Program-made: the position numbers and the translations under genes
The notes under the pieces: model-generated
What the model was told of the DNA's origin: nothing
Databases searched by the model: none
What the model saw: only the letters and a program-made list of their open reading frames with translations
NCBI GenBank assembly: GCA_031178625.1
Contig: JAPSIR010000004.1
Span: 1-48,736, forward strand
Origin: Cellulomonas sp.
GTDB taxonomy: Bacteria; Actinomycetota; Actinomycetes; Actinomycetales; Cellulomonadaceae
Reading direction: 5' to 3'
Length of the DNA stretch: 48,736 nt
Shown: positions 6,096-12,311 of the stretch, one piece after another
Layout: each line of letters opens with the position of its first letter
Position numbering within the stretch: the stretch's first letter is position 1

Positions 6096-7021
6096 AGCGC
6101 CTCCCCCACCCACGTCAGCTCGGCACCGGACGGGAAGTAGCGGCCCCGGATCGCGTCGGAGGCGGCCGCGCACGCGCGCTGCACGAGCTCCATCTCCCGC
6201 GGCAGGTCGTCGAGGATCACCATGAGCGGGCGGTACTCCAGGTTCGAGCGGACGTGACCGAGGTGCCGGCGCGCGTCGTCGATGCCCGCACGGTCGCTGA
6301 CCGGCTCGAGCGCCGCCAGGCACGCCTCCGCCTGGTTCAGCGCCGACACGATCGAGCGCGGGAAGAGGCGGTCCAGCAGGAGGAAGCCGGCTGCGCGCTC
6401 GTCGGGCGCGGTGCCGCGGTACGTGCGCAGGAACGCCTCGTGCGCCCCGCAGGAGCGCAGCAGCGTGGTCCAGCCCGGGCCGGCCGAGCCCGCGAGCGCG
6501 CGCGTCGTCAGCAGGCGCGCGGTCATGTCCGCGCGCTCGATCGAGCGGCCGAGCACCATGAACGACCACGTCTCGTCGCGCGACGTCGTGCCGTCCATGA
6601 TCCCGGCGACGATCGCGGCCCGCTCACGCACCCAGGTGAAGTAGTCGTGCGGCCGCGTGGGCCGCATGTGGGTCGGCAGCTGGTTCCACGTCGCGTTGAG
6701 GCACTCCCACAGCTCGGTCGAGACGATCTCCCGCGCCCGGCGGGCGTTCTCCCGCGCCGACACGAGGGCGCCCGCGATCGCCGACGGCGAGAACCGGTCG
6801 TAGGCCAGCACGTCGAGGACGTGCTCGCGGCCCACCTCCACGTCCGGCGGCGGCGCCGGCCGGTCCATGACCGACAGCAGCGACCGGCACGCGGCGTCCT
6901 CCTCGGCCCACGGGTCCTCGAGGAGGATCTGCACGTGCACGTCGAGCAGGCGCGCGGTGTCGTCCGCGCGCTCGACGTACCGACCGATCCAGAACAGCGA
7001 CTCCGCGATGCGGCTCAGCAC
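6092..7021 (-). CDS. Alpha-E domain protein (DUF403)
   Basis: MLSRIAESLFWIGRYVERADDTARLLDVH; overlaps flanking ORFs. Confidence 0.9.
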   Translation of the reverse strand: MLSRIAESLFWIGRYVERADDTARLLDVHVQILLEDPWAEEDAACRSLLSVMDRPAPPPDVEVGREHVLDVLAYDRFSPSAIAGALVSARENARRAREIVSTELWECLNATWNQLPTHMRPTRPHDYFTWVRERAAIVAGIMDGTTSRDETWSFMVLGRSIERADMTARLLTTRALAGSAGPGWTTLLRSCGAHEAFLRTYRGTAPDERAAGFLLLDRLFPRSIVSALNQAEACLAALEPVSDRAGIDDARRHLGHVRSNLEYRPLMVILDDLPREMELVQRACAAASDAIRGRYFPSGAELTWVGEAL

Positions 7022-8598
7022 GTCGCACCCCCGGCCGCCCGCTGCTGCTGCTGCTGCTGCATGACCTGCACGCGCGCGTCCTGCGGGTTCGCGTCGATCG
7101 GCACGGACGCGTCCTGCGCGACCGCCGGGCGCTGGTGCTGCGCCTGCTGCTGCGAGCGCCGCGGGACGCGCCCGCCGAGCACCCAGGTGTCCTTCGACCC
7201 GCCGCCCTGCGACGAGTTCACGACGAGCTGCCCCTCCGGGAGCGCCACGCGGGTGAGGCCGCCCGGCAGCACGTAGACCTGGTCGCCGTCGTTGACGGCG
7301 AACGGCCGCAGGTCGACGTGGCGCGGGCGCAGGCCGGCGTCGACGAGCGTCGGCACGGTCGACAGCTGCACCACCGGCTGCGCGATCCACCCGCGCGGGT
7401 CCTCCCGCAGGCGCGCCCGCAGCGCGTCGAGCTCGGCCCGGGACGCCGTCGGCCCGACGACCAGGCCCTTGCCGCCCGACCCGTCGACGGGCTTCACCAC
7501 GAGCTCGTCCAGCCGGTCGAGGACCTCCTCGAGGGCGCCCGGGTCCTCCAGACGCCACGTGTCGACGTTCGGCAGCAGGGGCTCCTCGCCGAGGTGGTAG
7601 CGGATGAGGTCGGGCACGTACGTGTAGAGCAGCTTGTCGTCCGCGACGCCGTTGCCGACCGCGTTCGCGAGGGTCACCGTGCCGAGGCGCGCGCACGTCA
7701 TGAGACCCGGGCAGCCGAGCAGCGAGTCGGAGCGGAACACGACCGGGTCGAGGAACTCGTCGTCGACGCGGCGGTAGATGACGTCCACCCGGCGCCGGCC
7801 CTGCGTCGTGCGCATCCACACGCGCCCGCCGGAGCAGTACAGGTCGCGTCCCTCGACGAGCTCCACGCCCATCGTGCGGGCGAGCAGCGTGTGCTCGAAG
7901 TACGCGCTGTTGTAGACGCCGGGCGTGAGGACGACGACCGTGGGGTCGTCGACGCCCGCCGGGGCCGCGGCGATGAGGGCCGCCAGCAGCCGCCGCGAGT
8001 AGTCGACGACCGGCCGGATGCGCAGGGTCGCGAACAGCTCGGGGAACGTCTGCGCCATCGCGCGGCGGTTGCTCAGCACGTAGCTGACGCCGGACGGCAC
8101 GCGCACGTTGTCCTCGAGCACGCGCCAGCCGCCGAGGGAGTCGCGCACGAGGTCGATCCCGGACACGTGCACGCGCACCCCGTTCGGCGGCGCGATGCCG
8201 CGCGCCGCGCGGTGGAAGTGCGTCGAGGAGACGACGACCGAGCGGGGCACCACGCCGTCGGCGACCGCCTTCTGCGGTCCGTACACGTCCGCGAGGAACG
8301 CCTCCAGGGCACGCACCCGCTGCTGCACCCCGGGGGCGACGTGCTCCCACTCGTCGCCGCCGACCACGCGCGGGACGACGTCGAGCGGGAAGGGCCGTTC
8401 CTCGCCCGCGAAGTCGAAGGTGACGCCCTGCGTGAGGTACGAGCGGGCCAGCGTGTCGGCGCGCGCCCGCAGCTCGCCGTCGGACAGCTGCGCGAGCGCC
8501 GCGTGCACGTTGCGGTACGCCGTCCGGACCTCGCCGTCCGGGCCGATCATCTCGTCCCAGGCAGCCCCTGCCGGGTAGTCGTCGAACAGGTCCGCCAT
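7015..8598 (-). CDS. Circularly permuted ATP-grasp protein (DUF404/DUF407)
   Basis: MADLFDDYPAGAAWDEM; VVLTPGVYNSAYFEHTLLARTMGVELVEGRDL; KPVDGSGGKGLVVGP. Confidence 0.92.
   Translation of the reverse strand: MADLFDDYPAGAAWDEMIGPDGEVRTAYRNVHAALAQLSDGELRARADTLARSYLTQGVTFDFAGEERPFPLDVVPRVVGGDEWEHVAPGVQQRVRALEAFLADVYGPQKAVADGVVPRSVVVSSTHFHRAARGIAPPNGVRVHVSGIDLVRDSLGGWRVLEDNVRVPSGVSYVLSNRRAMAQTFPELFATLRIRPVVDYSRRLLAALIAAAPAGVDDPTVVVLTPGVYNSAYFEHTLLARTMGVELVEGRDLYCSGGRVWMRTTQGRRRVDVIYRRVDDEFLDPVVFRSDSLLGCPGLMTCARLGTVTLANAVGNGVADDKLLYTYVPDLIRYHLGEEPLLPNVDTWRLEDPGALEEVLDRLDELVVKPVDGSGGKGLVVGPTASRAELDALRARLREDPRGWIAQPVVQLSTVPTLVDAGLRPRHVDLRPFAVNDGDQVYVLPGGLTRVALPEGQLVVNSSQGGGSKDTWVLGGRVPRRSQQQAQHQRPAVAQDASVPIDANPQDARVQVMQQQQQQRAAGGATC
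7042..7059 (-). repeat. (CAG)6 trinucleotide tract encoding QQQQQQ near the ATP-grasp C-terminus
   Basis: ctg x6 on the + strand, read as CAG codons on the - strand. Confidence 0.9.
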
Positions 8599-9348: not shown

Positions 9349-9609
9349 GTGGCGAACATCAAGTCCCAGATCAAGCGCATCACGACGAACGAGAAGGCGC
9401 GCCTGCGCAACAAGGCCGTCAAGTCGGAGCTGAAGACGTACGTGCGTCGCGTCCGCGAGGCCGTCGCCGGCGGCGACAAGGACGCGGCTGCCGCGGCCCT
9501 CGTGACGGCGTCGCGCAAGCTCGACAAGGCCGTGTCGAAGGGCGTCATCCACGCCAACCAGGCCGCCAACCGCAAGTCGGCGCTGGCGAAGGCCGTCAAC
9601 GGTCTCTGA
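9349..9609 (+). CDS. rpsT: 30S ribosomal protein S20
   Basis: [37 protein letters not shown] start. Confidence 0.97.
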
Positions 9610-9782: not shown

Positions 9783-11108
9783 TCAGCCCAGCGACCAGGT
9801 CTGGTGCGGCGTGCCGGTCGGCACGGAGGGCTGGAAGCCCGCCTCCCGCAGCGCGCGGTCGTAGGCCTTGGCGGCCTCGTCGACGTCGCCGCGTCGCAGG
9901 TAGCGGTCGCCGAGCTCGCGCCACACGCCGGCCGAGTGCCGCGTCGCCGCCATCATCCCGAGCATGTCCGCACCCCAGCGGTAGGCTGCCGCGGCGCCGT
10001 CCTGGTCCCCGCGTGCCGCGAGGACGTCGCCCAGCGCCAGGTGCGCGGTCGCCGCCTCCAGCCGCGGGGCCTCCCCCAGCGCGGTCAGCGCGGCACGGGC
10101 GTCCGTCTCCGCCGCGGCCACGTCCCCGAGCAGCAGGTGCGCGCGCGAGCGCTCCACCTGCAGCCGCGCGACGTCGACCGTCGAGCCCGCGGCCGCCAGA
10201 CCCGGCTGCGCGAGGTCGATCTGCTCGAGCGCGCCCCGCGGGTCGGCGGGGTCGGAACGCAGCAGCAGCCACGCGTAGTTGACGCGCAGACGCGGCAGGT
10301 CGCGGTCCGGCTCACCCTCGGACAGCAGCGCGAGCGCGCGCTCGGTGTACCGCTGCGCCAGTTCGTAGTCGCGGCGCTGCTCGGCGACGAGCGCCGCGTT
10401 CCAGTAGACGGACCCCCGCCCGCGCGGCGTACCGAGCGACTCCGCGAGCCGGACGAGCTCCGAGGCGCGGTGCGTCGCGTAGAGCAGGTCGCCGCGCTCG
10501 ACGTACGCCCACAGCACGGTCGACGCGAGGCGCAGGTGCTCGTCCGTGCCGACGAGGTCCGCCGTGTCGAGGTCCGCGAGGGTGCGCTCCCCCACCTCGA
10601 CGGCGCGGTGCAGGTCGCCCGCCTCCAGGTAGCAGCCCACGAGCGCGGTGGTGAGCACCGCGGCGCGCAGCTGGTCGTTGCGCCCCTGCGTCTCGGCGAG
10701 CAGCGGCTCGAGGATGGTGATCGCCGCCTCGAGCTCACCCGTCATCTCGTGGGCGCGCGCGAGCGTGGTGAGCACCTCCGAGCGCAGGGCCGGCGTGATG
10801 ACCGACAGGTCGAGGCCCGAGATGCGGTGGACGGCGCCGGACGCGTCGCCGCTGGCGAGGTCGAGGCGGGCGTAGTCGAGCTCCAGCCGGGTGCGGGCCT
10901 CGTTCGGCCCGTCGTCCCCGTGCTTGAGGAACTCGAGCGTGGTGCCGAGCCGCTCCGCCAGCACCGTCAGCGCGGCGTCGGTCGGCTCCCGGTGCCCGGC
11001 CTCGATGAGGGAGATGTAGCTGGGTGAGAACGCGTTGCCGGCGAGGGCGGTCTGCGAGAGCCCTGCCGCCAGGCGCGCTTCGCGCACACGGTCACCGATG
11101 GTCGTCAT
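9783..11108 (-). CDS. XRE-family HTH regulator with TPR-like helical C-terminal domain
   Basis: MTTIGDRVREARLAAGLSQTALAGNAFSPSYISLIEAGHREPTDAALTVLAERL, then about 350 aa of helical repeats (ARAHEMTGELEAAITILEPLL; LGDRYLRRGDVDEAAKAYDRAL). Confidence 0.9.
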   Translation of the reverse strand: MTTIGDRVREARLAAGLSQTALAGNAFSPSYISLIEAGHREPTDAALTVLAERLGTTLEFLKHGDDGPNEARTRLELDYARLDLASGDASGAVHRISGLDLSVITPALRSEVLTTLARAHEMTGELEAAITILEPLLAETQGRNDQLRAAVLTTALVGCYLEAGDLHRAVEVGERTLADLDTADLVGTDEHLRLASTVLWAYVERGDLLYATHRASELVRLAESLGTPRGRGSVYWNAALVAEQRRDYELAQRYTERALALLSEGEPDRDLPRLRVNYAWLLLRSDPADPRGALEQIDLAQPGLAAAGSTVDVARLQVERSRAHLLLGDVAAAETDARAALTALGEAPRLEAATAHLALGDVLAARGDQDGAAAAYRWGADMLGMMAATRHSAGVWRELGDRYLRRGDVDEAAKAYDRALREAGFQPSVPTGTPHQTWSLG

Positions 11109-11113
11109 GAGAA

Positions 11114-11130
11114 GTCATTCTACGTATGAC
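11114..11130 (-). promoter_or_regulatory. Operator-like dyad GTCAT-N7-ATGAC over a putative -10 (TAGAAT), immediately upstream of the XRE-TPR ATG
   Basis: gtcattctacgtatgac; TAGAAT read on the - strand (11122..11117). Confidence 0.5.
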
Positions 11131-11209
11131 GCCCGTGTGCGCCAGCCCTTCACAGCGGCGAGTCGGGATCCGGTCCCGCGGGCTCGTCACCCGCGTCGGT
11201 CAGCGGGCG

Positions 11210-11248
11210 CGGTGGGACGCGCCGCGGTCACCCGCGGGCGTCCCACCG
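11210..11248 (-). terminator. Extended hairpin just 3' of the small peptide ORF (- strand)
   Basis: cggtgggacgc-g-ccgcgg-tcac-ccgcgg-gcgtcccaccg: 11+6 bp stem with a 1-nt bulge and 4-nt loop. Confidence 0.6.
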
Positions 11249-11261
11249 ACGGCTCACCGGG

Positions 11262-11393
11262 TCAGACCGCGTCCTTGCAGCAACCGGCGGCACCGCCGTT
11301 GAGCGAGACCGAGGCGGCCGTCACGGCCGGGACGCCGGCCGCCAGCGAACCGGTGAGGACGAGGGCGGCGAGGGCAGCGGCGACGGACTTCAT
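11262..11393 (-). CDS. Small secreted peptide, 43 aa, Cys-Cys near C-terminus (not in the supplied ORF track)
   Basis: MKSVAAALAALVLTGSLAAGVPAVTAASVSLNGGAAGCCKDAV*; AGGAG Shine-Dalgarno at 11404..11400 with 6-nt spacing; hydrophobic signal-peptide-like core. Confidence 0.7.
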   Translation of the reverse strand: MKSVAAALAALVLTGSLAAGVPAVTAASVSLNGGAAGCCKDAV

Positions 11394-11432
11394 GTCGTAC
11401 TCCTGTCAGGGCTCGGCGCCTGGGCGGGACAC

Positions 11433-11462
11433 GCGACGTCCTCGCCAGGCCGGGGACGTCGC
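11433..11462. promoter_or_regulatory. Inverted repeat upstream of the small peptide ORF
   Basis: gcgacgtcc-N12-ggacgtcgc. Confidence 0.35.
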
Positions 11463-11567
11463 GGCAAGGGTGACACACCGGGCGGCGCCACGGGAACCTC
11501 GGGTGCGCCCGGACGGGTCACCCGAGGATTCCACCCCCTCGCGACGAGTTCACAGGGCGCGACATGT

Positions 11568-11590
11568 GGTGTCATGGTCGCCATGACACC
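11568..11590 (+). promoter_or_regulatory. Perfect inverted repeat enclosing the start codon(s) of the EAL-like gene; contains GTCAT-N7-ATGAC
   Basis: ggtgtcatgg-tcg-ccatgacacc. Confidence 0.55.
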
Positions 11591-12311
11591 CGACGGGCGC
11601 GAGTCGACGCTGGCGCGGCTCGGCGCCGCGGTCGACGCCGCGATCCCGCAGGAGCTGCGGCGGGCGTGGGAGCAGCACGTCGCCCGGCAGCCCGTGCTCG
11701 TCGCGCGGCAGGGCATCTACTCGATGCACGGGCGCCCCTTCGGGTACCAGTTCAGCTACCGCGCGCCCGGCCACCACGCCGACGTCGCACGCGGATGGGG
11801 TCCGCGCGACCACGAGCGCGCCACCGAGCACGTGCTGCGCGCGACCTTCGGCCGCGCCGAGCTCGAGAGCGTGGCCCACGGTCGCCTGCTGTTCGTCCGG
11901 TGCCCGCGCGCGCACCTCGTCGGCGAGCTCGAGGTCCCCGCCCGCCCCGACCGCCTCGTCCTCGAGGTGAGCGGCACCACCGAGATCGACGCCCAGGTGC
12001 TCGCGGGGATCCGGCGGCTGCGGGAGCGCGGCTTCCGGGTCGCGCTGCCGTCGTTCGTGGACCGGGCCGACCAGCGCCGGCTGCTCCCGCACGCCGACTT
12101 CGTCAAGATCGACGTGCGGGACCTCGACGTCGAGGGGCATCCGGTGGTCGGCGTGGCGCGGTCGTTCGGCGCCATGCTCATCGCCGAGTACGTCGAGGCG
12201 CCCGAGACGCTGCGGCACGCGCGCGACCTCGGGCTCACGCTGTTCCAGGGCAACCTCATCGAGCGCGCGGGCGTCCTCGACCGTGCCGGCGCCCGGCTCG
12301 TCGGGCGCTGA
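11574..12311 (+). CDS. Degenerate EAL-domain-like protein (YuxH/EAL-HDOD N-terminal type)
   Basis: VLVARQGIYSMHGRPFGYQFSYR...FVKIDVRDLD...LIAEYVEAPETLRHARDLGLTLFQGNLI; start may be 11574 or 11583. Confidence 0.65.
   Translation: MVAMTPDGRESTLARLGAAVDAAIPQELRRAWEQHVARQPVLVARQGIYSMHGRPFGYQFSYRAPGHHADVARGWGPRDHERATEHVLRATFGRAELESVAHGRLLFVRCPRAHLVGELEVPARPDRLVLEVSGTTEIDAQVLAGIRRLRERGFRVALPSFVDRADQRRLLPHADFVKIDVRDLDVEGHPVVGVARSFGAMLIAEYVEAPETLRHARDLGLTLFQGNLIERAGVLDRAGARLVGR

Follow-up and report, generated by a model that had tools for sequence, protein, structure and literature searches.

The locus examined here raises the question of whether a 43-codon open reading frame (ORF), lying upstream of an XRE-type regulator with TPR-like repeats, encodes a secreted signal that this regulator reads, as in the RRNPP systems of Firmicutes. 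It lies in a window of 48,736 nucleotides from Cellulomonas sp., the window being the whole stretch of DNA that was analysed. A preliminary description had proposed an RRNPP-like communication module in an actinobacterium or, alternatively, a regulator of a secreted Cys-Cys peptide with another role. Comparison with related genomes favors the module: the two genes probably constitute an RRNPP-like peptide-receptor pair in Actinomycetota. The core features are as follows.

11262..11393, minus strand: Cys-Cys propeptide gene, 43 aa, MKSVAAALAALVLTGSLAAGVPAVTA followed by ASVSLNGGAAGCCKDAV, with the predicted cut between the two
11400..11404, minus strand: Shine-Dalgarno sequence AGGAG of the peptide gene, read in the sequence; a similar '(t)gacaggag' precedes most orthologous peptides
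9783..11108, minus strand: XRE-HTH and TPR regulator, 441 aa, candidate peptide receptor, from Pfam, an AF2 model and PDB matches

The short ORF begins with ATG, translates as MKSVAAALAALVLTGSLAAGVPAVTAASVSLNGGAAGCCKDAV and was found exactly as first described, with the AGGAG directly readable at 6-base spacing from the ATG; its stop codon lies 153 bp from the regulator ATG, on the same strand, with the peptide upstream. Searches of Pfam and NCBIfam returned no match for the 43-aa ORF. Related loci were scanned with a CC-peptide rule, requiring an ORF of 30-60 aa with a hydrophobic leader, a Shine-Dalgarno sequence and CC within the last 14 residues. A match was present within 600 bp upstream of the regulator in 68 of 71 related loci, compared with a single match in 595 kb elsewhere in those loci, and the lone background match adjoins a second regulator of the same family. 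Within the 48.7-kb window, ORF 11262..11393 is the only match. The frequency of upstream CC-peptide ORFs is thus far beyond chance expectation. Comparison of 15 disjoint close pairs gave a pN/pS of 0.25 for the peptide gene, and the substitutions in close disjoint pairs (46/20/120 by codon position) were dominated by the third position; these pairs were used in place of all pairs, for which the ratio was saturated (1.03). The comparison indicates purifying selection, on which the preliminary description had made its proposal depend, and the sequence data indicate that the 43-codon ORF is a real gene.

All the peptides have a basic and hydrophobic leader and, close to the C-terminal end, an invariant Cys-Cys; the propeptides are 36-48 aa long in the related loci compared. 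Apart from the initiator Met, only two Gly and the vicinal Cys pair are invariant. The tail retains G-x-x-G-C-C-[KR], and in the signal part hydrophobic residues replace one another freely. A net-positive N region and a hydrophobic core were found in all 70 peptides, and an AXA-type site before the tail in 65 of the 70, the other five having no clear AXA site. The cleavage site initially placed near AVTAA is retained as the prediction for this peptide, in which a cut after VTA or TAA would leave 16-17 residues, while the length of about 16 aa has to be widened across relatives, where 9-25 residues (median 21; 65/70 relatives) are left after the first AXA-type site. A lipoprotein, with the Cys serving as lipobox, was considered and rejected: the CC pair lies 10-20 residues past the hydrophobic core and, in our judgement of the lipobox rule, the SPCC- or GPCC-type contexts in relatives also speak against it.

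Pfam analysis of the regulator revealed an HTH_3/HTH_31 domain at residues 4-61, followed by TPRs (TPR_2, E 1e-13; TPR_12, E 2e-11), all above the cut-offs, in agreement with its original annotation as an XRE-HTH protein with TPR-like repeats. The AlphaFold2 model, built with 44 relatives, has a mean pLDDT of 91.9 and a pTM of 0.83, and shows an N-terminal HTH bundle followed by paired helices up to residue 422 that form an all-helical superhelix. Across relatives, a central block at about residues 184-277 is conserved and includes the invariant W236-N237. A Foldseek search with this model returned eukaryotic peptide-binding TPR superhelices (LGN, kinesin light chain) as the best matches; its matches also included the PlcR-PapR7-DNA complex (3u3w, E 4.3e-7), apo NprR (5dbk, TMq 0.50) and RapJ-CSF (4gyo, TMq 0.51), the alignments to NprR and Rap being at a low level of sequence identity, 12%. 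The C-terminal domain is thus modeled as a TPR fold, as had been supposed. In a sequence profile search, PlcR was the best natural match across HTH and TPR (E 9e-9, residues 1-180), with generic TPR and HTH proteins scoring about the same, and the ComR HTH and RapJ were also matched. The regulator is confidently modeled to resemble a peptide receptor, with an HTH and a TPR superhelix like those of PlcR, NprR and Rap. The TPR-like regulators of the NsdA family and RamB gave weak NCBIfam matches to the HTH and TPR regions, and the regulator is a member of neither, scoring 20.4 bits for NsdA (NF053720; cut-off 75) and 21.9 bits for RamB, far below its cut-off of 700.

On either side, the pair is flanked by resident genes.

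9349..9609, plus strand: rpsT (ribosomal protein S20), resident gene on the other flank, from Pfam Ribosomal_S20p
11574..12311, plus strand: EAL-type neighbor, resident, a possible target outside the cassette, from Pfam EAL (E 6e-11)

A search of 82 genomes of the genus with one profile identified a regulator orthologue in 65, and the peptide was present alongside it in those same 65; neither was found by the same profile in the other 17. The expected co-occurrence of peptide and regulator in relatives is therefore borne out, at 65/65 against 0/17. Twelve of the 17 profile-negative genomes have no regulator at all, three (G253, G424 and G453) carry more divergent CC peptides, and in the remaining two (G425 and G432) the regulator next to the EAL gene has diverged, its promoter lacks an operator of the kind described below, and no CC peptide was found at these loci. 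In eight genomes that lack the cassette, rpsT and the EAL gene lie 155-263 bp apart, and the gap contains no CC ORF and no operator. Because the flanking genes are adjacent in genomes with neither gene, peptide and regulator behave as a single unit of gain or loss, and genome comparison indicates that they were gained or lost together between resident genes. In two genomes (G429, C1:2481910-2483218; G442, C1:1505595-1506913), the regulator is split into two adjacent frames beside an intact peptide ORF, which we attribute to decay or sequencing error.

The EAL gene was rejected as part of the system, being present in 82/82 genomes with or without the cassette. It encodes a short protein whose EAL match covers residues 122-231 only, and in which YQFSYR takes the place of the EALxR-like motif usual in catalytic EAL proteins; this protein is probably not an active phosphodiesterase. 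In many relatives, a second, more divergent EAL-type copy (about 40% identity) adjoins the first. Elsewhere in the window, ORF 7015..8598 on the minus strand terminates in a CTG/CAG-type trinucleotide run at about 7015-7070 (translation end MQQQQQQRAAGGATC). The run sits at the overlap with an alternative frame, and repeat-length variation between the two ORFs is possible.

Inspection of the intergenic regions revealed a 17-bp inverted repeat, GTCAY-N7-RTGAC, that is common to the regulator and peptide promoters and recurs at a third site upstream.

11114..11130, minus strand: Operator R, GTCATACGTAGAATGAC, an exact match ending five bases before the regulator ATG
11458..11474, minus strand: Operator P, GTCACCCTTGCCGCGAC, one mismatch, upstream of the peptide gene
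11571..11587, minus strand: Operator U, GTCATGGCGACCATGAC, 178 bp upstream of the peptide ATG, overlapping the divergent EAL start codon

Operator R overlaps a TAGAAT -10-like element (11117-11122). Of 70 loci, 55 have an exact motif no more than 60 bp from the regulator start, compared with 2 of 6468 background windows, and 38 have one within 110 bp of the peptide start (background 6/6468); allowing up to one mismatch, the count upstream of the peptide rises to 58/70 (background 89/6468). In 52 of the 70 loci there is also an exact third site, 110-450 bp upstream of the peptide. Operator U is assigned to the cassette, since the Actinotalea loci that have no linked EAL gene retain it and all eight cassette-less genomes lack it. 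These shared sites suggest that the regulator binds GTCAY-N7-RTGAC, and predict that it controls its own peptide gene.

A wider regulon was sought and rejected, the regulator-promoter form of the site being confined to the cassette: 58 genomes of the genus each have a single copy of the stricter GTCAYN3TANARTGAC, adjoining the regulator start, and no other copy was found. Beyond the cassette, the peptide-promoter form gave scattered matches that were found in cassette-less genomes too, and the loose GTCAYN7RTGAC counted 15-35 sites per genome, mostly G+C-centered. Because recognizable operator sites are nearly confined to the cassette, no regulon of community behaviors is visible, and the only outputs apparent in the sequence are the regulator and its peptide, with the EAL gene as a possible third.

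Comparison of divergence between the proteins of the locus showed that the peptide C terminus follows the TPR domain when the HTH is controlled for (partial r 0.52; HTH given TPR, -0.12), and likewise when the EAL protein is controlled for (0.42; EAL given TPR, -0.03; permutation p 0.001), in permutation tests that leave in some shared ancestry and are further weakened by linkage. The result offers supportive evidence that changes in the peptide C terminus go with those in the TPR domain, and not with those in the HTH or the neighboring gene.

CC peptides also stand beside related regulators in Actinotalea, Pengzhenrongella, Longispora albida, Actinoplanes sp. KI2 and several MAG lineages. For a paralogous regulator (37-41% identity), they lie downstream and end in SPCCK or similar. 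A separate conserved palindrome, GTGCCGGAMAGTCCGGCAC-like, separates the promoter from the start of the peptide gene in this paralogous group. At two of the paralogous loci (L071 and L073, in G011 and G006), four tandem CC-peptide genes follow one regulator, spaced by CCCGTCC-type repetitive spacers. In other lineages the CC peptide is divergent from the regulator, and in Longispora it is convergent. Between two and four regulators of this family stand in tandem at L081 (G253), L247 (G453), L085 (G184) and L086 (G115), and some of them have a CC peptide to themselves. At three Streptosporangiaceae or actinomycete MAG loci, the peptide lies about 2 kb downstream, past a gene for an S9 prolyl-oligopeptidase that is a candidate processing enzyme.

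L163 4835-6643, L165 6334-8133 and L167 2899-4698: S9 prolyl-oligopeptidase genes, between regulator and CC peptide

Relatives at a still greater distance, from elsewhere in the phylum, were scanned at 18 loci, of which 17 gave no plausible CC peptide, so the CC-peptide rule does not match everywhere. The sole plausible match, a 33-aa ORF (L186 3944-4045, G594; MSRFRAVLLLVMGVLVAGAIWIGGAAPFPGCCG) divergent from a distant regulator, is possibly an outlying member of the peptide family. A match at L172 was left out of the count, having no Shine-Dalgarno sequence and an internal CC. The distribution of these loci indicates that the cassette predates the genus and extends beyond it.

Among the nearest known counterparts is the PlcR-PapR system of the Bacillus cereus group, in which a receptor with an N-terminal XRE-type HTH and TPRs likewise lies beside a short propeptide of secreted type, and which gave the best natural HTH-plus-TPR profile match and structural matches here (PDB 2qfc, 3u3w). 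The C-terminal end of the propeptide is the signal in PlcR-PapR, and the same is proposed for the present peptide. The pair differs in belonging to Actinomycetota, in its regulator, which at about 440 aa has a larger number of TPR hairpins than PlcR, in a peptide gene that is usually upstream, and in the invariant Cys-Cys of the peptide; to our knowledge, PapR has no Cys-Cys. The NprR-NprX and Rap-Phr systems share a long TPR superhelix of similar extent and have Sec-type propeptides, as is predicted for the present peptide, while Rap proteins lack a DNA-binding HTH. Rgg-SHP, ComR-ComS and PrgX-cCF10/iCF10 are alike in their XRE-HTH regulators, the ComR HTH having been matched by the profile. 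Rgg, ComR and PrgX control the promoter of their own peptide gene, often with a small local regulon, and we know of no CC motif in the SHP, ComS or cCF10/iCF10 peptides. SHP-type peptides leave by the PptAB exporter and not by Sec (PMC10075063).

In a published survey, RRNPP systems were defined by a propeptide of 10-100 aa with a Sec/SPI signal (SignalP), a receptor of 250-500 aa matched by TPR HMMs, and adjacent genes separated by -60 to 400 bp (PMC10075063). The corresponding values here are 43 aa, 441 aa with TPR HMM matches, and a gap of 153 bp; the Sec signal was judged by proxy rather than by SignalP, from the N region and core (70/70) and the AXA site (65/70). With moderate confidence, the pair may be said to work like an RRNPP system, a comparison drawn from features rather than from a tree with RRNPP members. 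Conservation in 65/65 genomes, purifying selection and the TPR superhelix support this reading, as do lines of evidence that the preliminary description had not foreseen, namely the shared operator, joint loss, tandem peptide duplications and covariation with the TPR domain; multiple propeptide copies are known in RRNPP systems (PMC9765709).

In the proposed pathway, the propeptide would be exported by Sec and cut by signal peptidase, and perhaps by further proteases too, after which its C-terminal 10-20 residues would be taken back into the cytoplasm, an oligopeptide ABC transporter being one possible route. The genome encodes three SBP_bac_5 oligopeptide-binding proteins, which are candidate importer components. 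The peptide tail would then bind the concave face of the TPR superhelix, where it would be read through the vicinal cysteines and their neighbors, and binding would alter HTH occupancy of the R, P and U/EAL sites. In the simplest version, repression would be relieved by the peptide, giving feedback on peptide production; repression with the peptide as inducer is taken as simplest because the R site overlaps the -10-like element.

Much of the same evidence can be read differently. The peptide could be the output of the system, a secreted Cys-Cys peptide with antimicrobial, surface-active, or metal- or thiol-reactive properties, produced under a regulator that senses something else. The confined distribution of the operator keeps this explanation alive, since sites found almost only at the cassette make the peptide the main visible target; the small set of invariant residues would suit it as well, and tandem gene copies would fit effector dosage. 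TPR superhelices bind many things, which counts against assuming a receptor. Nevertheless, the cassette consists of two genes, with no immunity, modification or export gene accompanying the pair, the mature part of the peptide is very short, and a mere target would not need a C terminus that tracks the TPR domain more closely than the HTH or the neighbor. We regard an effector as unlikely, while giving it real weight. A smaller probability is assigned to self-sensing feedback, in which an exported or membrane-held peptide would report secretion, envelope redox or metals via its vicinal cysteines, and the regulator would read the returned or retained form. Invariance of Cys-Cys in otherwise divergent peptides, the five peptides without a clear AXA site and the local confinement of the operator, which suits homeostasis, all fit such a role; yet an AXA-type site is present in the great majority of peptides (65/70), the loci examined show no recurrent metal- or redox-related genes, and sequence alone does not distinguish self-sensing from signaling.

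Two further explanations are much less probable. The cassette has two genes, a patchy distribution and an XRE regulator, as might a small hydrophobic toxin with an XRE antitoxin-like repressor, but the partner is a 441-aa TPR protein and no small antitoxin, PADLOC matched only the generic HTH, and the peptides have cleavable-type signal sequences with a conserved hydrophilic tail, making a toxin-antitoxin pair very improbable. Cys-rich leader ORFs are known as attenuators in mycobacteria, and in the window the ORF does lie upstream of the regulator on the same strand, where translation through its two Cys codons might control the regulator gene in cis. Such an attenuator scarcely seems credible: the regulator has a promoter-like element of its own and an operator a few bases from its ATG, the signal-peptide shape is left unexplained, and cis attenuation is impossible in those relatives whose CC peptides are downstream, divergent or convergent. 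For the same reason, the class of Cys-responsive attenuators, with an ORF in cis upstream on one transcript, was rejected on the arrangements in relatives.

The RRNPP-like module is thus the reading carried forward. The RRNPP_detector survey was confined to Firmicutes and viruses (PMC10075063), so that actinobacterial pairs fell outside its scope, and a survey of RRNPPA evolution does not mention actinobacteria (PMC9765709). A literature search that covered few subscription journals and no preprints found nothing on actinobacterial CC peptides or HTH-TPR peptide receptors. We tentatively propose, as an extension that may or may not hold, that these loci represent an undescribed, widespread family of vicinal-cysteine pheromone-receptor pairs in Actinomycetota, of RRNPP type outside Firmicutes, spanning Cellulomonadaceae, scattered Micromonosporaceae and others, in which redox or metal state may gate recognition. 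The invariant Cys-Cys would be a new recognition chemistry for HTH-TPR receptors. Actinobacterial signals are described as typically small molecules (PMC10075063), and the cassette suggests peptide signaling in a phylum thought to use mainly these. It is a self-contained and directly testable case with defined parts, namely the 43-codon gene, a single receptor and a single operator, and at this locus some natural strains carry the cassette and others lack it. If it is a pheromone system, it would change the reading of regulation in many actinobacterial genomes, where such short ORFs easily go unannotated.
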